A DNA stretch of 64,000 nucleotides from Ceratodon purpureus (taxonomy: Eukaryota > Streptophyta > Bryopsida > Pseudoditrichales > Ditrichaceae), in NCBI GenBank assembly GCA_014871385.1, contig CM026424.1:2545131-2609130 (forward strand), read 5' to 3'. The notes under the pieces were generated by a model. It was not told the origin of the DNA, ran no database searches, and saw nothing but the letters and a program-made list of their open reading frames with translations. Position 1 is the stretch's first letter; each line of letters begins with the position of its first letter. A program made the translations under genes and the position numbers. Shown one piece after another: positions 1 through 10,007 of the stretch.

Positions 1-229
1 ATTCCCGCCACCACCAGAAAACAAGCGCAAAGACACACACAGACAGAGAGAGAAGAGAAGAGAATACTTCGTGGACGCGGTCGCGGTGGAGAACAGTTCC
101 GCCCCCTCGCACGGTCCTGTGACCGCGCCGCCAAAGCGTGTGGCCCTTCACCGCGGGGCTCTTTGTAAATTTAATTTAGAATGCTTCGAAATCGAAATTC
201 GGTAATTGTTGGTGTGTACAGTAGTCAAT

Positions 230-2415
230 AATTTTCATTATGGAATATTAATTTTAGTTATATCAGAATCACCAAATGGTAATGTCAATATTTGTAAGAA
301 TTGCGAGATAAATATTACTGTCCATTTTCTCATTTTACTTGTGTTTACCTGATTTGGGTAGTGAGAAAGTAAAAATAACTTTTGTTTAAGAAGTTACTTT
401 AAAGATAGATAGTGCGGTTCACTCTCCATATTGTTAATCCCATGTGGTTTGGTAAACCTGCTCTTTCTTACCTTAAGAAGAATTCACCACGATGGCTCCA
501 ATAACTCACATGGGATTGGGGAACCATGACCCTTAATGTGTACTGTGAATGGGGCTGAGGTTACCAACCCAGTGTGAGTTTCAATGAAACCTAAACAGGA
601 TAGGGAACTCGTTTTTTCAGGGTTCTGATGAAATGTATTGGTAATATTTTACAATGCTACACAACATGCTTGCATTATGTGAAGTTGGTTTACTGTTTTG
701 ATTGTATTTGCATTTATATACGTTTATGAGTCTACATTAGATTTTGATTTTTGATCTTTTTGAAGTAACTAAATTTTAATCAAATCAATAATGCTTCTTC
801 CAATTTTGTAATAAGAATTTGTAGTTATTTGCCTAAGCATCAAATTCAAATACACTACTTGCAATGATAATGAATTTCATATACGCAAATTGGAAACATA
901 TTTACCTAAATATAATCATCATATTCCTAAAGTACATGTTAGGAACATAATTTAATTATAATATAATAATATAGTATAGTATACTAAGGTATTAATATAT
1001 TCTTTTACAAATTTATTTTTATTTATTGATTATGAAACGAGAATAATAATCTATATTCAAGTATACTCAAATCTAAAAATGATATACAAATATATTCGAA
1101 ATAGTTTTGTAATTATATTACGAATGCATCAAATATAAATACACTATTAGCAATGAAAATTTATTTACTATACTATAATTGGGAACATATTTACGCAAAT
1201 GTTATCATCATATTATTCTTCTACAACTTGTTAGTTTAATTATGAATTAGAATTCTATTCCAAATAATTTCCATGCAATTTTGAAGATTTTGGTAATTCA
1301 AAATTCATATACAAGCATGTACATAGATACTGCAATTTAAAAATATACTTTTCATTATGGAATAATAATTTTAGTTATATCAGAATCACTGATTGGTAAT
1401 ATCAATATTTGTAAGAATTGCGAATTAAATATTACTGTCCCTTTTTGTATTTTATTTGTATTAACCTGATACGGGTAGTGAGGAAGTGAATAACTTTTTA
1501 TAGGAGGTTACTTTAAAGATAGATGCTTGCATTATGTGAAGTTGGTATTGCATTTTGATTATATTTGGATTCATATAAATTTATGAATGTACATTAGATT
1601 TGGATTTCTGAATTTCTATGAATGAAAGATAGAGAAGTATGTTTTTTTATTGTCTTTATTAGCTTTCAGCCTCCCCGTTACTAAATTTACAGTAAAATAT
1701 GGAAATATTATAATACAAAATAAACAAATAGGGTTTATAAATTAAAATTCTATTCAAAAGAAATTGAACGCAATTTTGGAAGTTTTGAAAAATAACACAA
1801 TTTTGAGCTTCGAAGTGGACAAATTATGAACAATTGTAAAGGATGAAATGTACATTTTTATTTTATGTAATAATAATTTGTAATCATTTGACTAAAGCAT
1901 CAAATATGGATACACTATTAGCAATGAAAATGAATTTCATATACTCGAATTGGAAACATATTTACATAAATGTTGTCATCATATTCTTAAGGTACATGTT
2001 AGTATCATAATTTATTTAGAATATAATAATATAGTATAGTATACTAAGATACTAATATATTCATTTATAATTTTATATTTAATTAATGATTATAACACTA
2101 GAATTATAATCTATATTCAAGTATATACAAATCTTAAAATGATATATAAGTATATTCAAGTATATATATGAAGTACATTGTTAAAAATAATAGTATTTAA
2201 TTTTAGAATTCAATTCATTAATTATGGCAAATTCTTTATATTGTTTAGAAGGTTTAGGGTTTTTTATATTTATTCATGAGAAGCGAATATTTAAACCATG
2301 GTATGCCTTGTATGATTGGCATGTATATTACAATAATCTTAATCAATTCATTCACGTTCTACCTTGACTAATATTCTTACAATTTTATTACATTCTAATA
2401 AGAAACTGGAATTCT
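230..2415. repeat. Two diverged tandem copies of an AT-rich unit of about 1.1 kb
   Basis: The stretch at 234-410 reappears at 1348-1520, and the stretch at 839-1105 reappears at 1887-2170, in the same order and orientation. The region is therefore two tandem units offset by 1.05-1.1 kb, with many substitutions and small gaps. It is strongly AT-rich and I see no convincing coding sequence. The 5' edge (1-170) is GC-richer and could be the end of an unrelated exon, but I cannot identify it. Confidence 0.75.
411..667. other. 257-bp segment present in the first AT-rich unit and absent from the second
   Basis: In unit 1 the shared sequence ending AAAGATAGAT is followed by 257 bp of GC-richer DNA before the shared GCTTGCATTATG resumes. 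In unit 2 (about 1519-1525) the two shared parts are directly joined. The extra DNA contains an imperfect inverted motif (CCCATGTG near 440, CACATGGG near 507). It looks like an insertion in unit 1 or a clean loss from unit 2. No target duplication longer than 2-3 bp is visible. Confidence 0.6.
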
Positions 2416-4170
2416 TGTTCATTTGCATAATTTTAAAATACAAAATTCATAATTCATAGATTCAAACGAAATTTACTACTACATTTACTAGTTAGCATGG
2501 ACATATTAGAATACGAGATATACAAATATGAAAGCATCAGATGAAACACTGGTTTTCGTCTAGAAGAACCCTGTTTTGAAGGCATTCCATTCCAGAAATT
2601 GTTTACGGGGAATACCATCAGCAAAAGTTACCAGAAGATGAAAGTCATCTCTTTTCACATCTATGGTTTCTAAATATTGTATAATCTAACGGTCCTGCTA
2701 ACTACTCCTGGAGTCCCCATTCCATATCTGAGTTGAATAGCAGCAAAAAGTAAAATCGTAGAAGTATATCGAAGATGCCTGCAAGTTCTGGAGAAAAGAG
2801 AAAAACAAGATCAGATGGTATGATGTTTAGGGTTCAAAACGGAAAAGTGCATGTCAAAAGCAAGGACTCATCCTCCTAAGAATCAGAACGAACACAGCAT
2901 GAGCCATTAAAATGCTGCGCACCACATACAGCAAACGCAATCTATTATTATGAAAACATCAAACTGAGGGCAACGTTAAGGGTTCTGAGGAGATAACAAT
3001 TCACCTACTCATTCATGTGGTGGGCTCCCCAAATCCACGCTCCCCTCCTCATTAGAATCAGGCATAGAGAAGCCGTCGCCGGAGGTGAGGGGAAACTTGA
3101 TGTTGGAGGCGTTCATAATCTGCAGTTGCTCTAGACCATGTGCAATAGTCCAATCCCACTCCACACCGGGCTGCATTAGGCGTGCAATGAGGTTCCACGG
3201 GGGAATCTCCACGCCGCGACCACGGGCGCGTTCCACAGCCATAAACCAGGGACGAAGCTCCTCCACTCCTTGTGGAAAAACAACCACCTCCCACTCGTCT
3301 GGCGGGTAACTTGACACCCTAAAACGACCGCCCGACCTCCTCATCACAGCAAACGAACTACAAGTAGATGAAACAGAAGGGAAACTAAGAATGAAACAAC
3401 TGTTTCGTCGCCCAAAGGAACTTATGCTTATGAAGCAGCATGGGCGGGAAGCCGAATGTTCCAGAGTAACGAAGGGGACTTTGACCAGACTCGGTAACGG
3501 GACTTTGACCGATCTGGGCTTTCGAAAGTCCGGATCTAATTTAAAGTGTCATTTTAATTTATTATTAAAGAATTGATTAATGGGATTGTATGCTTAGACA
3601 AGCATCTAGAGCCTTTCTCGATATTATATATTAATACCACAACTATAATTATGATAATTGGTTTAAAACGTTTCATATGAATCCATAATTTATGAGTTTT
3701 TTTTAAAAAATGAATGAACCAAACATTCCACTTTCTTATAAGAATGTAATAAAATTGTACAAATAGAACTCAAGGTAGAACATTAATGAATTGATTAAGG
3801 TTTGTGTAATTTCCATGCCTACCATTCAAGGCATACCATGGTTTAAATATTCGCTTCTCATGAATAAATATAATTAACCATAAACCTTTTAAAAAAAATA
3901 AAGAATTTGCCATAATAAATGAATTGATTTCTATAATTTAGTACTTTTATTTTTAACAATGTACTTCGTATATATACTTGAATATATTTGTGTATCATTT
4001 TTAGATTTGTATATACTAAATTATTGTTTTATTATTCTCGTATTATAATCAATAATTAAATATAAAATTGTAAATAAAAATATTAGAGCCTTGGTATACT
4101 ATACTATATTATTATATTATAATTTGATTATGATACTATCATGTACTTTAAGAATATTAGGTTACATTTA
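1970..4170. repeat. Foldback-like structure: inverted arms of about 440 bp around a 1.3-kb centre
   Basis: The left arm (about 1970-2415) and right arm (about 3720-4170) are reverse complements with an estimated 80-90 percent match. Both share the segment containing AAACCATGGTATGCCTTG. A further partial copy, in the orientation of the right arm, lies at about 4190-4440. The centre (2416-3719) is less AT-rich and contains the reading frame at 3009-3344. The arms belong to the same repeat family as the tandem units to the left. Whether this is a mobile foldback element or chance juxtaposition of repeat copies cannot be settled here. Confidence 0.6.
3009..3344 (-). CDS. Hypothetical small protein (111 aa) inside the inverted-repeat structure
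   Basis: This is an uninterrupted frame of 111 codons from the ATG at 3344; an in-frame GTG directly precedes it. The protein starts with a basic stretch (MRRSGGRFRVSSYPPDEW), continues with hydrophobic and Trp-rich text, and ends in an acidic Ser/Gly-rich tail. Its base composition is clearly GC-richer than the AT-rich arms on both sides, which suggests coding or recently coding sequence. I recognise no family. It could be a captured exon, and no splice sites decide the model. The neighbouring bases 2416-3008 hold nothing else I can support. Confidence 0.35.
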   Translation of the reverse strand: MRRSGGRFRVSSYPPDEWEVVVFPQGVEELRPWFMAVERARGRGVEIPPWNLIARLMQPGVEWDWTIAHGLEQLQIMNASNIKFPLTSGDGFSMPDSNEEGSVDLGSPPHE

Positions 4171-4942
4171 GGTCAACGTACTTTCACCCCATGCCTATCA
4201 TACAAGGCATACCATGGTTCAAATATTTGCGTCTCATGATTAAATATTAAAAATTCAATCTTCTAAAAAACGTATAGAATTTGCCATGAGAAATGAATTA
4301 AATTCTATAATCTAATACTATTATTTTTAACAACGTATTTCGTATATACTTGAATATACTTGTATATCATTTTAAGATTTGTATACACTAGATTTTAGTT
4401 AATTATTCTCGTACTATTTTTAACTGGACATTAAATTGTTAATGAATATATTAGTACCTACTTGTAAATGAATATATAATTATATTATACATATTATAAT
4501 CCTAACATGTATATTAAAAATATACATGTTAAGATGTAGAGTTCCAGAAACGAAAGAACAAAGCTACACCATTCACGGCGTAAAGAACACATTATGAAAT
4601 AAATAGAGACATAAATAAAAGTACATGAATATATATACATAATATATACATGACAATTATATCTGACTAAATTTGTAGAATAAATAAATAATTCTAAATT
4701 TAAAAACATATCTACCTAGGTCTATCAAGAACTATTCATGAACTCACATATAATGATTTGATTTCATACATCAATATAATAATGAAATTGAGCAAAAATA
4801 CATACTCTAGTACATGGAGGTATGAATATTTGCAACGATATACTTCCCTGTATGAACCTTACTCACGAAATACAAATAGGTTCAAACAATTTTCGATTTA
4901 ATTTTATTCCATATACGTGATATTTAATGTCCCTAGAAATGC

Positions 4943-5031
4943 CTTAACCCTGTAGACTAAACCCTAAACCCTGGACCTAAGACCCTAAACCCTTAACCCT
5001 GAACCCTATACCCTAAACCCTGAACCCTGAT
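4943..5031. repeat. Degenerate interstitial telomere-like repeat
   Basis: Several CCCTAAA and CCCTGAA units occur in loose tandem, interrupted by short spacers. This matches the C-rich strand of the plant telomere repeat (TTTAGGG)n. The tract is short, imperfect and followed by ordinary sequence, so it is interstitial rather than a chromosome end. Bases 4171-4942 before it are AT-rich with only repeat remnants. Confidence 0.6.
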
Positions 5032-5626
5032 CGAAGATGATAAGTTCGGGGCCAAAAGTCAACATTCTCTCTGGCGCTATGACGTGCCCAACCCATCCCG
5101 TTTGATACAATTAATGCACCAAATATTTCGCATCTGCATCTATCTAAAGGGCCGAGAATTGTGGAAAGTGGTAATTCCCGCGCTTTCTTACACCTCGAAA
5201 TGTGGAGGGTCGAATGGTCATGCATGATTCCCGCCTATTTTCAAAACTGAAGCGGCATGAAAACGGTCACACGTTACAGAATGACCTCTGGAATCGTCCC
5301 CGGTCGAAGTCTTTTCTCTACTCACTTGCTTCTCTCGCTTGTAGGAGCTCTCGGCGCTCACTTGGAGGTTGTTGTTTTCTGGGCGGAAGCTGTATTGCGC
5401 CGTGTCTCTTGTACGTCTTCTCTTTAGTTTTCTCCGATCATCAGTACACTTCATTGATATCTGCTTCTTGTATGCTTTCCATTGATTCAAGTCATGGTGT
5501 ATTTGCAGTGTCTCTCTTTCCTTCTTACAGACGTTTTAGAGCGGACACCGTAAGCGTACTCTGAGTCTGCGACTCAGAATTCCGAAGATGGAAGCACCGA
5601 TTAAAGCGCCGCTTTTTGCGGACGGC

Positions 5627-5981
5627 AGTTTAGCTCGACTCGAGCTAAACTGCTGCATCCAAAGAGCATCATGAGTTTAGCTCGAGTCGAGCTAAACTCA
5701 AGCACCCAAAGGGCAGCATAAGTTTAGCTCGAGTCGAGCTAAACTACCGCAACCAAAGGGGAGCAGAAGTTTAGCTCGACTCGAGCTAAACTCATGTTGC
5801 ACATTGGGTGCATGAATTTAGCTCGAGTCGAGCTAAACATATGTATCCAAAGGGCAACACGAGTTTAGCTCGAGTCGAGCTAAACTTCTGCATCGAAAGG
5901 GCAGCAGCAGTTTAGCTCGACTCGAGCTAAACTCATGCTTCCCATTGTCCAGGATCAGTTTAGCTCGACTCGAGCTAAACT
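5627..5981. repeat. Array of eight 25-bp palindromes at a 47-bp period
   Basis: Palindromes AGTTTAGCTCGA-N-TCGAGCTAAACT start at 5627, 5674, 5721, 5768, 5815, 5862, 5909 and 5957. Seven are perfect or nearly so; the fifth differs at its ends. The central base is C in copies 1, 4, 7 and 8 and G in copies 2, 3, 5 and 6. The 22-23 bp spacers resemble each other (a CATCCAAAGGGCA-like core), and some look inverted (between copies 4 and 5, and between 7 and 8). The period is close to four and a half helical turns. The array ends about 95 bp before the transposase start codon, so it may act as its promoter or operator, as a transposase-binding array, or both. Confidence 0.95.
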
Positions 5982-6074
5982 GCGCCTGGGATAAGTTCTC
6001 AAATTTAGAGATTAATTCTCTTTAAGGAGTATAATATGTTCTAACAGAATTGGGTCTGTTACATTTCAGGTACA

Positions 6075-8912
6075 ATGGACTATGTCTCAGATGACGAGGT
6101 TCCCGTTGAAGTGCCCGTAAACCCAGACCTTCCAGACTTCGTGGTTGTACCCTCAAGACAATGGCAGAACAAGACTGTAACAATATATAGCGACGACAAT
6201 ATCCCGTTAGCAGAGGGTTTGATCCGGAACCCACGGTCCAGCTTGGTATCTGACACGGTTGGTCCCCTTGGTGATTCCGTTGTCGTCGTCCAGGTATCAC
6301 GTTCTTTGGTCGAAGAGGAGTCAGAGGATGATTGGAGGTACTCCTTCAAAACGTGGCCTATCAGCCACGTCTATCTAAATGGAGTTAGCCTAGAGCACCA
6401 TAGTCAACGTGATGTGTATAACCGTTGGGTTGCGGAGCGTAACCGATCCCTGGGAGATCGTACCCGATCGTATGATAACTCCTCTAGGAATACCCCCCCT
6501 CCTATATCACGTCACGCTGAGTTTCTGATGACCCAGCCATCTATCAACTCTGTAGCGGCAAACACGTGCTGCGCTCACCTATGCGTCCAACACTATCCCA
6601 GAGATAAAATCTCTAGTCTACGGTCGCGTATGTACGACAAGACCACAGTGCAGTTCCGTAATCACATAAAACTCGACGTGCATAGACAGATCCACAAGAA
6701 TTCAGCGGGGAAGAGTGTGGTGACTCTGGAGGGCATAGATGTTTGCCCCTTCGCCTGGATGAAGATTATGGGAGTGAGCTCCAGTACATTCTATAGAAAT
6801 GCCCAGTATGCTGCTGCTGGTTTCGAGGCTCAATTTCACGGTAATACTGGTTTACGTAAACCTCGAAATCACACAGTAGTAGCAACTGCCGTCCTAGGGG
6901 CCATCCTGGACAGGCATGCCGACCACATGCCCCACAAGAGTCGTGTTCTGCCTTCAGGGGAGACAGTTGTAGCTAAAGTTCTGCCTTCCAGTTTCAAATG
7001 GAAGGAACAGATTCCCATCCTCGATGAGCATTTAGCGGACTGCGGATTGCCTCCTATGTCCGCTTCTAACTTGAGCAAGATCAGGAGGCTTAGCTATCCA
7101 GAATATTACGCCAAACGGGCAGGAGACAACTTTGCTCGTTGCTCAAAATGTGATGAGTTCCAGTCCCAGAAGAAGTTGACGGTTACAGGATCTCAGGCGT
7201 CCCTGTTGTGGTCTAAGAAAATGAGGCTGCACAATGACTCTGCAATGGCGCATAGGGACTTGTACTACCTAAATCGATTCAGGTCGAAGGCTACTCCGCA
7301 TGAAGTTCTTACTATTATGCATGACAAGATGGACCATTCGAAGACGGCGTCGCCGGCGTTATCCCACAAGGTCAAACACTTAGACGGTCTCATGAAGCTT
7401 CCTCTCGCTGTCACGGGAATGCTTGCTCATGGGCATGTGGACCAACGTTACGCCCATTATGGCCTTGACATTTACTCACACGACGCTAATTACACGGTTG
7501 GATCGTTTGCGAAGCTCCTTCGGGACCTTGAGTCACCCCCTAAATCCACCTCTAGGGAACTCTTTCAAGAGAATCCTTCCCACCCATTGTATGCCGCGCT
7601 TTTGCATGGTTCAGAGATGTGTTTGGATCCTCTTGGCCCTCCTCCTGAGGTTCCTGTTGCTGCTAAACCCTTGCCTCCCATTCTTAACGTCCAAATGGAT
7701 AACGCTGTCAGTGATAACAAGAATAGGTTTGTATTTTCATTCTGGTCCCTATTAGTCGCGAAGCGGGTGTTTCGCGAAGTGTACGTGAATTTCATGCTGG
7801 TCGGCCATACTCATGACGATATTGATGCCCTTTTCGGGCGATGGAGCATGGCTTTGCGGAGGGAGGACTTCCCCACAGTACCTCTCCTCATGAAGTCCTT
7901 CATGAAACATGAAGCAGTACCAACAATTCCGCATCTTATTCAGGAGGTCCCAGATTTCAAGAAATTCATCGCGGAGTGGATGCTTGATGGCGACGATACG
8001 TTAATGGGTCACACTAAAGCTCATCAGTTCAAGTTCTATGTAGATTCTTCAGGATGCCCAGTCATGAAGTATAAAATCTTCTGTCACGACGACGACTGGT
8101 TGCCAAAAGGAGATGGTTGTGGCATCAAGTTGTGGAAGGAGGATTCAGAAGGTCGATCTTTATGGCCCCGTGGTGTTCCTGGTGCCGTGGCGCCTCGCGA
8201 GATGCGGCACCTGCCTGATGTGATTAAGGGCTTGTCGGGTTTTGTAGATCATTGGGAGAGGCTATCTTCGGATTCAGTCGAGTCCAGAAGAATCTATGAG
8301 CCACTCTCATACTATTGGAACGATGTTAAAGAGGCTCTCTCCATTCCCTTTGATGTTGTCCCCGCCTTGGAGCATGGTTTTTGGCCATCCACGCGGCTTG
8401 CTCACTCCGTCGAAGACGAGTTTCAGGAAGATGGAACTTTGCGCGAGGAGTTCGCAGAGGATGATCACTTTGTTGGTCACAAACGAGATCGCCCAGGACC
8501 GTCGTTCCGTGTTGCGCGAGACCTTTTTGCAGGGTACTTCTTGGCGCTTCGACCCTGCGATGAAGACGATCGTCCTTTCTGGCTTGCGCGGGCCTTGACT
8601 GACCCTAATTCGAACCCTGACCTCCCAAACACGCTCCAAGTAGAGTTCTACCGCCCAATTTCCCGAGATGAAAATGTTTTGAAATTCTATACCGGCTGGG
8701 AGGTGGATGGGAGACTTCGTTGGACAGTTGAGAAGGATGTACCCGAGTCGTGGCAGAGTACTGATGCAGTCATAACAGCTTGGAAATCCAAAGTTAAAAA
8801 AAATGTCAACAAGCGGGGCGTTGGCAAGGATCCAACGCTGAAGATCCCACTGAAACAACTGGACATTATAAAGGCCTCCTTGGAGAGATTTGTGTCTCCG
8901 GATTCTGAATAA
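6075..8912 (+). CDS. DUF7869-type DDE transposase-like protein, 945 aa, uninterrupted
   Basis: This is a single open frame of 945 codons. The second half carries the landmarks I associate with DUF7869 proteins: MHDKMDHSK (about 415-425), QMDNAVSDNKN (about 540-550) and GHTHDDIDALFGRWS (about 575-590). Their conserved Asp residues have the spacing of an RNase H-like DDE core. Upstream, a segment around VCPFAWMKIMGVSSSTF (about 223-240) and a Cys pair (ARCSKCDEF) fit the N-terminal DNA-binding part of such proteins. The C-terminal 110 residues (FAGYFLALRP onward) resemble a small chromatin-reader-like beta domain. A splice acceptor-like TTACATTTCAG lies just before the ATG, so a 5' UTR intron is likely. 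Assigning this family to transposases is partly inference; I cannot place it in a named superfamily. Confidence 0.75.
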   Translation: MDYVSDDEVPVEVPVNPDLPDFVVVPSRQWQNKTVTIYSDDNIPLAEGLIRNPRSSLVSDTVGPLGDSVVVVQVSRSLVEEESEDDWRYSFKTWPISHVYLNGVSLEHHSQRDVYNRWVAERNRSLGDRTRSYDNSSRNTPPPISRHAEFLMTQPSINSVAANTCCAHLCVQHYPRDKISSLRSRMYDKTTVQFRNHIKLDVHRQIHKNSAGKSVVTLEGIDVCPFAWMKIMGVSSSTFYRNAQYAAAGFEAQFHGNTGLRKPRNHTVVATAVLGAILDRHADHMPHKSRVLPSGETVVAKVLPSSFKWKEQIPILDEHLADCGLPPMSASNLSKIRRLSYPEYYAKRAGDNFARCSKCDEFQSQKKLTVTGSQASLLWSKKMRLHNDSAMAHRDLYYLNRFRSKATPHEVLTIMHDKMDHSKTASPALSHKVKHLDGLMKLPLAVTGMLAHGHVDQRYAHYGLDIYSHDANYTVGSFAKLLRDLESPPKSTSRELFQENPSHPLYAALLHGSEMCLDPLGPPPEVPVAAKPLPPILNVQMDNAVSDNKNRFVFSFWSLLVAKRVFREVYVNFMLVGHTHDDIDALFGRWSMALRREDFPTVPLLMKSFMKHEAVPTIPHLIQEVPDFKKFIAEWMLDGDDTLMGHTKAHQFKFYVDSSGCPVMKYKIFCHDDDWLPKGDGCGIKLWKEDSEGRSLWPRGVPGAVAPREMRHLPDVIKGLSGFVDHWERLSSDSVESRRIYEPLSYYWNDVKEALSIPFDVVPALEHGFWPSTRLAHSVEDEFQEDGTLREEFAEDDHFVGHKRDRPGPSFRVARDLFAGYFLALRPCDEDDRPFWLARALTDPNSNPDLPNTLQVEFYRPISRDENVLKFYTGWEVDGRLRWTVEKDVPESWQSTDAVITAWKSKVKKNVNKRGVGKDPTLKIPLKQLDIIKASLERFVSPDSE

Positions 8913-9033
8913 ACATGTAGCTTTGAAGTTGGTGGTCTTGAAGTTCTGAATTTAGTCAGATCCCTTATATTCGTTTGAAGACGACTGAACGGAATACAGT
9001 TCGTCCCTTCTGTTTTCAAGACAAAGGTAGATG

Positions 9034-9050
9034 TTTAGCTCGAGTCGACC
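9034..9050. repeat. Half-decayed palindrome of the 5' array type, 3' of the transposase
   Basis: TTTAGCTCGAGTCGA is present here, but its right arm has changed to CCTGATC. It lies about 120 bp after the transposase stop codon and links the 5' array with the 3' variants. Confidence 0.6.
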
Positions 9051-9186
9051 TGATCAGTTATAGCGTATTAGTTCTAGCGTATTTATGTTTTGAATACTAG
9101 ATAATTACATATATTTAATTGGAGGGAACACTACTTAAGTGTTTCTGTCCATTCCTTATTTATCATGTGTACCACATTATAGACCG

Positions 9187-9213
9187 CAGTTTAGGTCGAG
9201 GCGACCTAAACTG
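9187..9213. repeat. 27-bp variant palindrome (3' side, copy 1)
   Basis: Twelve-base arms CAGTTTAGGTCG and CGACCTAAACTG surround AGG. This is the same theme as the 5' array, with GGTCG replacing GCTCG, so it is a perfect palindrome of a second sequence type. Confidence 0.85.
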
Positions 9214-9343
9214 CATTTGGCGTTGAAGTTCGTACTTTACGACTGCGGGATACCAACAGGTCACCTATAGTTCTTAGTGTAGATTTTTACTTAGTACCCT
9301 AAAGCGTTGATTCTATATCATATGTACTGCCACATAACAGCCA

Positions 9344-9364
9344 TTTAGGTCGAGGCGACCTAAA
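9344..9364. repeat. 21-bp variant palindrome (3' side, copy 2)
   Basis: Nine-base arms TTTAGGTCG and CGACCTAAA surround AGG, 154 bp after the previous copy. Single half sites such as GTCGACCTAA follow at about 9567, 9670 and 9820, so the series decays towards the presumed element end. Confidence 0.8.
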
Positions 9365-9838
9365 CGACATCTAGCGTTGAAGTTCCTAGTTTGGATATCT
9401 GAAGTAGAGCCGATAACATACATTTGTTGGCATGGGACTATACTGAAGTCCGTATGTTCTTGGATTGCATATCATACTCTGGAAACTGTAGGCAGCTATG
9501 TTAGTCGAACAACTTGATTGTTTGTACAGGTCTGAAAGAGCCTGTCACGGATTCAACATTTAAGGAGTGTCGACCTAATTTGTATTTCCACACATATATA
9601 TAATATAAGATTTCCCGGCATATCCGTTGTGTCCATTTCTTGTTATTTGTTTGATGTTCATTTAGGGTGGTTCGACCTACCTTGTATTTTTTGAAGTATT
9701 TCTAGTAAACCTCTAGCTTCTTTCATTTCCCATTAGTACTGTGTGATCATGTCCCAAATTAATGGAAATTGCTTATAAGCTTTTCCTTGCCAAGTATGGG
9801 ACCATTGTGCCCATTTTAACTCGACCTGACCTAATGCA

Positions 9839-9871
9839 TTATTTTGGGAGATGATAAATCTCCCAAAATAA
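9839..9871. repeat. Perfect 14-bp hairpin near the presumed 3' end
   Basis: The arms TTATTTTGGGAGAT and ATCTCCCAAAATAA are exact complements around the loop GATAA. It follows the last half site and precedes the 121-bp repeat at 9887. Subterminal hairpins next to the cleavage site occur in some eukaryotic DNA transposons and Helitrons. Its role here is inference. Confidence 0.75.
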
Positions 9872-9886
9872 CGAATATGGTGTTAG

Positions 9887-10007
9887 CTTAACAAGTCTCT
9901 GATGCAGACTCTAATAAAATGTACGGGGGAGCTGCAGACAGAAGATCGAGGAACTTGATGACAGAATATCGAGGAAATTAAAGACAGGACATCGGTGATA
10001 CCCTCCT
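9887..10007 (+). repeat. 121-bp dispersed repeat, copy A
   Basis: This copy matches 19456-19576 over 121 bp in the same orientation with about five substitutions and no gaps. It contains a loose internal repeat of roughly 23 bp (GACAGAAGATCGAGGAA, GACAGAATATCGAGGAA, GACAGGACATCGG). Sequence diverges abruptly at both edges. It could be a small non-autonomous element or part of a larger subterminal region. Confidence 0.85.

Follow-up and report, generated by a model that had tools for sequence, protein, structure and literature searches.

The window analysed here, a stretch of 64,000 nucleotides from Ceratodon purpureus (C4:2545131–2609130 of a 362.5-Mb genome), contains a periodic array of eight palindromes at positions 5627–5981. 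Each palindrome is composed of the half-sites TTTAGCTC and GAGCTAAA with GA(C/G)TC between them. The start-to-start steps are 47, 47, 47, 47, 47, 47 and 48 bp, and seven of the eight copies match the perfect 25-mer AGTTTAGCTCGA(C/G)TCGAGCTAAACT; the exception is the fifth (5815), in which outer bases are changed. The central bases read C, G, G, C, G, G, C and C in order, and the spacers are 22 bp long, with a final one of 23 bp. Direct reading of the array thereby confirms the spacing, the spacer lengths and the C/G switching that a preliminary description had given. With up to three mismatches allowed, the degenerate palindrome yields 23 strand-matches in the window; 100 shuffles averaged 0.06 and never attained this count. 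When palindromic arrays of at least four copies were sought without specifying the motif, this array was the sole one in the 64 kb, and five block-shuffled windows gave none. The preliminary description also took the persistence of such palindromes to be surprising on the grounds of their instability. This was overstated, since palindromes of 25 bp lie outside the size range prone to instability.

The array is followed on the forward strand by a gene (6075–8912) for a 945-aa protein, a putative transposase, in which Pfam detects DUF7869 (PF25273, E=1.5e-42) as the sole domain; the family name itself assigns no function. A GTAAGC-like donor at 5550 and a TTTCAG acceptor 5 bp before the ATG delimit a possible 5′ untranslated intron (5550–6069, forward strand), inside which the array would sit. 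An AG acceptor-like stretch shortly before the ATG is common to the window family and the four related loci examined, the donor having been examined in the window only. Acidic residues of the protein, including D417, D420, D542, D582 and D584, are invariant over nine sequences. Sequence searches against solved structures gave chance-level matches only, and searches of PHROGs and NCBIfam gave no significant match. One scan of viral contigs found 53 stretches fitting a pattern, of which none was confirmed as a relative, and a literature search for DUF7869 by name found no paper. In the C. purpureus genome, the DUF7869 profile gave 1,399 first-look candidates, the best 150 of which were scored and all lay above the curated cut-off. 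The 945-aa gene itself is present in at least 48 scored copies of 98–100% identity among 1,780 first-look candidates, and 35 of these 48 are free of internal stops.

The association between the array and this gene is retained across the copies. The array edge, defined by the last palindrome and the bases following it, occurs at 147 places in the genome (78 and 69 by strand). It lies 81–88 bp upstream of the gene, in the correct orientation, in at least 43 of the 48 copies, which is a lower bound as 73 of the 147 places were used. Two more copies (C10:13430137, L054, and C4:16947211, L060) carry the array on direct reading. As at least 45 of the 48 scored gene copies are accompanied by an array, the earlier proposal that the array is part of a transposon family is borne out. 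The 25-bp palindrome occurs 1,668 times in the genome (backward-read control, 0). In the loci read, with the first 100 strand-places of these sites listed, the outcome that would have spoken against the proposal, an array scattered over many unrelated loci, was not seen, though one lone site lies elsewhere. Tandem arrays independent of the gene or of a mobile element, as in a plain satellite, were not found among the loci read and the copies listed.

The array belongs to a large DNA transposon with terminal inverted repeats (TIRs; class II). Comparison with copies elsewhere delimits an element of 18,778 bp (C4:2536237–2555014), whose right half occupies window positions 1–9884 on the forward strand and whose left half lies outside the window. 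The ends are formed by 27-bp inverted repeats, AACACCATATTCRTTATTTTGGGAGAT, with one mismatch between the two in this copy; the right repeat is at 9858–9884, and its left partner, outside the window, starts at C4:2536237. The four bases that follow (AGCT, 9885–9888) also directly precede the left end, forming a target-site duplication. The TIR has 392 genome-wide matches with up to three mismatches (192 and 200 by strand; backward-read control, 0). An exact 4-bp target duplication, such as AGCT, ATGG or AGGT, was present in ten of ten elements checked, comprising the window copy plus nine of the listed TIR pairs, and a further copy (C2:3452000–3471999) has ACAT on both sides by eye. The 98–100% identity of the 48 scored copies and the number of TIR matches point to a multi-copy, recently mobile transposon.

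The element contains two divergent genes, each headed by an array of the same palindrome. The second gene and its array are located to the left of the window, the array about 1.3–1.7 kb before the window start. This second array comprises ten palindromes in front of the leftward gene, with steps of mostly 52–54 bp and of 62, 66 and 39 bp at the edges. The open frames of the second gene are 491, 490, 310 and 261 aa long. The 261-aa frame matches an NLI-interacting-factor phosphatase (E=1e-13). This CTD-phosphatase-like domain, read in another copy at L021:1678–2463 (C2:3453677–3454462, minus strand), is an unusual passenger or captured domain for a DNA transposon. Exon 1 harbors a conserved IINGQHS motif (L021:5675–7150 and L073:7017–8516, minus strand), presumably resembling that of DGQHR/ParB-like proteins; a search of family libraries with exon 1 did not support this identity. 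A methyltransferase identity of the gene was rejected because the motif-like stretch that closes exon 2 has not been retained in the relative. The second gene is found 8–23 kb upstream, in the expected opposite orientation, at 37 of the 48 DUF7869 copies. Among the matches listed, a scored second-gene exon is missing near 11 of the 48, and 50 of 87 scored second-gene exons lack a scored DUF7869 partner.

In total, the element holds 32 sites of the palindrome, as against a single loose-pattern match in window positions 10001–64000. Besides the arrays, six sites, single or grouped, are distributed over the second-gene region, mostly between coding segments; one of them falls within the open frame of exon 2, past the portion conserved in the relative. 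Four sites of TTTAGGT type are situated near the left end. Four more lie near the right end, two of which are decayed: a palindrome with mixed half-sites and two mismatches (9034–9054), two of the form TTTAGGTC-n5-GACCTAAA (9190–9210 and 9344–9364), and a decayed site with three mismatches (9815–9835). Neither these sites nor the right transposon end figured in the preliminary description. Separately, a lone perfect palindrome at L023:4580–4606 (around C1:15616581) has a partial second copy about 65–70 bp before it; the flanking DNA is dissimilar to the transposon copies compared, and this site apparently lies in a host gene.

The variation among copies differs strongly between the parts of the array. 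In 27 distinct arrays, 197 of 216 palindromes are perfect 23-mers, and the copy number is eight in 23 arrays and 6, 7, 9 and 10 in one each. For the 21 arrays of standard form, the pairwise difference is 1.2% in the arms, 2.9% and 3.8% in the flanks before and after the array, 11.9% in the spacers and 30% at the centres. The polymorphic columns number 14 of 192 in the arms, 34 of 170 in the flanks, 60 of 155 in the spacers and eight of eight at the centres. The arms are thus less variable than the flanks (p=0.0005, by a Fisher test that treats columns of related copies as independent). The centre differences are C/G in 488 of 508 cases and A/C in 20, and a C/G change is what inversion produces. 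Spacer 2 is reversed in five of 21 arrays. In a comparison of 22 arrays, one place being counted twice, a variant of spacer 4 (7 of 22) is the exact reverse complement of a variant of spacer 3 (7 of 22), and in the second array two adjacent spacers nearly mirror each other. The C/G flips and inverted spacers are most readily explained as side effects of exchange between adjoining palindromes, by recombination or templated repair. Since the centres differ by C/G and the spacers occur in both directions, the switching central base is most simply a sign of flipping or exchange between palindromes. The constancy of the arms may stem from selection, from palindrome exchange, or from both.

Palindromic arrays were also found upstream at ten of 15 other DUF7869 loci. 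The remaining five (L072, L075, L076, L077 and L079) have no array in the 3–4 kb read upstream; their open frames of 471–661 aa are 45–54% identical to the 945-aa protein in the core, and they do not form one supported clade in the tree. The 966-aa protein of L068 (49% identical to the 945-aa protein) has an array with a 26-bp period upstream and a second one with a 54-bp period after the gene, and L069, L070 and L071 (47–48% identical) have arrays with a 25-bp period. The families with the TTTAGCTC-type site group at 92/96, just under the strong-fork mark of the tool. The 678 family (L067 and L078, the former 35% identical) carries CGTCGGC-n5-GCCGACG at about 74 bp, while in L064, L065 and L066 (23–25% identical) imperfect palindromes centred on CATATG follow one another with a period of about 65 bp. 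L066 was counted as having an array on its several CATATG-centred copies; the four-copy scan missed it, and a looser scan gave only three-copy groups. In L080, a distant match with DUF7869 similarity over about 140 aa only and with stops, a GGTACC-centred 20-bp palindrome, GGCTCTCGGTACCGAGAGCC, is repeated seven times at L080:3100–3448 (C11:7660099–7660447), mostly at 33–34-bp steps. The preliminary description had suggested that the 47-bp period places successive sites on alternating faces of the helix. This is not supported because the same element and its relatives use differing periods: the second array has mostly 52–54 bp and the relatives 25, 26, 34, 41, 54, about 65 and about 74 bp, which, taken with 47 bp, have no common phase.

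The arrangement with two arrays recurs in the 966 family. At L073 (C1:18076500–18086400), exons 29% identical to those of the window element's second gene (E 1e-42 and 2.5e-46) are headed by an array with 41-bp steps of TTTAGCTCACWGTGAGCTAAA. They lie about 10 kb upstream of a 966-aa DUF7869 match (C1:18095504), a position from which both would be assigned to one element. With arrays at the L068 gene and at these exons, the 945 and 966 families appear to share a two-gene, two-array plan. The two families have palindromes with common outer half-sites but with different sets of five central bases. Where a half-site has its mirror partner no more than 40 bp away, 5 bp separate the two in 88 of 88 cases for the 945 family, in 51 of 58 at the 966, 942, 980 and 944 loci, which use the same half-site, and in 19 of 21 in the 678 family with its unrelated CGTCGGC half-site. 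These counts describe motifs that were first picked as palindromes and are not an independent discovery. The CATATG-centred and GGTACC-centred types are of even length and lack the 5-bp gap; the dyad rule is therefore limited to the TTTAGCTC and CGTCGGC half-sites. Such a gap is as expected of a dimeric DNA-binding protein that would conserve its build while changing its specificity.

Considering these findings, the array probably serves a recently active DNA transposon with two genes as a cis-regulatory binding platform, on which a dimeric element-encoded protein would find both a multi-site operator and the signals for end recognition. A platform serving expression as well as end recognition fits best because the same palindrome heads the two genes and recurs near both ends. 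The family-wise alteration of the mirror-image sites suggests that the element makes a protein recognizing its own sites. In the proposed mechanism, a dimer would bind each palindrome with one subunit per half-site across the 5-bp gap, and the binder would be either the DUF7869 putative transposase or the second-gene protein. Many dimers on the arrays could act on the two promoters or first introns as a switch or a damper, while those on the subterminal sites could help to join the element ends, as TnpA does for En/Spm. The protein and its site would change together over time, so that distant families come to have different sites. Several observations count against this platform: five of the 15 other DUF7869 loci are array-less over the 3–4 kb upstream, two palindrome types lack the 5-bp gap, the right subterminal sites are partly decayed, some scored DUF7869 copies and second-gene exons have no scored partner, several internal palindromes are also suited to a role in RNA or splicing, and the conservation of the arms could result from gene conversion within the arrays.

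A rival explanation is that the array is a functionless, short satellite-like sequence that spread with the transposon and whose perfection is kept by recombination between units. The copy numbers of 6 to 10, the inverted spacers and the C/G flips are clear traces of unit-to-unit exchange, as such passive amplification would leave. However, exchange by itself does not account well for different palindromes with different periods recurring upstream of ten of 15 relatives, for arms that are kept while the spacers drift, or for sites of the same geometry outside the arrays, and we regard a purely passive origin as unlikely. It is similarly improbable that the palindromes act in RNA, as transcript hairpins of introns or 5′ untranslated introns that control splicing or feed small-RNA silencing. 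Such a role agrees with the AG acceptor-like sites that shortly precede the ATG in the window family and four relatives. It also suits the position of the internal palindromes, most of which fall between coding segments of the second gene in the window element, as does one in L073. Nevertheless, further sites occur near both element ends, a single-base centre makes a poor RNA loop, and the retention of the 5-bp gap where the half-site is unrelated suits a protein dimer. Compensatory double changes were not seen, since all 19 of the 19 listed changed palindromes are broken ones; this list counts two places twice and leaves out L054, where the sequence after the array was unfit for the filter.

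Palindromes are typical of dimeric regulators, and the dimer could also be a host repressor or activator whose sites were captured by the element. The lone copy in an apparent host gene (L023) and the half-site common to the 945 and 966-type families favor this origin. A host factor would, however, be expected to keep its sites alike, whereas the palindromes of distant DUF7869 families in this genome are unrelated, and among the matches listed the sites cluster in elements; capture of host sites is accordingly very unlikely. A broader form of the element-encoded platform, which is possible but doubtful, is a self-addressing lineage. Each DUF7869 family would possess its own palindromic operator, with arrays over two divergent promoters and sites at the ends, and a co-diversifying dimeric binder that might be the DGQHR-like second protein and not the transposase. 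If this is true, many families could coexist in one genome without cross-talk, and the array copy number would set a dosage-sensing feedback on transposition. As for the binding platform itself, if that reading is right, the genome offers natural matched pairs of protein and site, with five palindrome types beside the relatives of one protein family. These would permit a direct test of how transposon families separate their control circuits and how binder and site change together, and would provide a first biological context for DUF7869, a large family here.

The closest functional parallel to such a platform is TnpA of En/Spm. TNPA is reported to recognize subterminal repeats and to be able to regulate its own activity both positively and negatively, with motifs that vary between families (PMC2613891). 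The resemblance extends to the large size of the element, its two functions and the many short repeated sites close to its two ends, and the subterminal palindromes of the window element are candidates for protein-bound subterminal repeats of the kind that CACTA elements have. In contrast, the window element ends in AACACC...GGTGTT and not in CACTA, produces 4-bp duplications (10 of 10) as against the 3 bp of CACTA, and carries its sites as long palindromes arranged periodically in front of a divergent gene pair, with DUF7869 as the only domain that Pfam finds in its protein. The AACACC termini and the 4-bp duplications rule out membership in CACTA. Sola elements are described as having 4-bp target duplications, TIRs of 11 to 1124 bp and in some cases a length above 15 kb, and they are reported in the moss Physcomitrella (PMC10741241). 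A Sola2-type transposase has 888 aa, and the Sola2 duplications are AT-rich (PMC3627910). The 4-bp duplication in ten of ten elements, the element size and the similar protein lengths (888 and 945 aa) agree with Sola, of which the window element may be a member, and the invariant acidic residues are compatible with a Sola DDD transposase. Unlike those of these Sola2 elements, the duplications AGCT, ATGG and AGGT are not all AT-rich, and the Sola descriptions consulted make no mention of palindrome arrays. A literature search that included few subscription papers, partly as excerpts, did not find the palindromic subterminal array arrangement described, which is weak evidence of novelty.

Several further features of the element and its copies were recorded. 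Between the two arrays, the AT-rich segment at window positions 1862–4523 contains several repeats of 300–500 bp in both orientations that are about 79–88% alike. A degenerate run of the telomere-like repeat CCCTAAACCCTG is present at 4940–5030, upstream of the suspected promoter region. In the copy at C1:18418596–18456426 (L018), about 37.8 kb separate the TIRs, and the expected continuation of the right end gives way to the start of foreign coding sequence, so that this copy may be either a longer element or a nested insertion. Another copy (L019/L020, C2:616000–635999) keeps the left half and the 52-bp-type array and then continues into the same foreign sequence; the DUF7869 gene was not seen in the 20 kb read, and the copy is seemingly a deletion derivative. 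Finally, contig C6 (110.5 Mb), which is possibly a sex chromosome, carries 17 of the 48 scored DUF7869 copies and most of the second-gene copies with stops.
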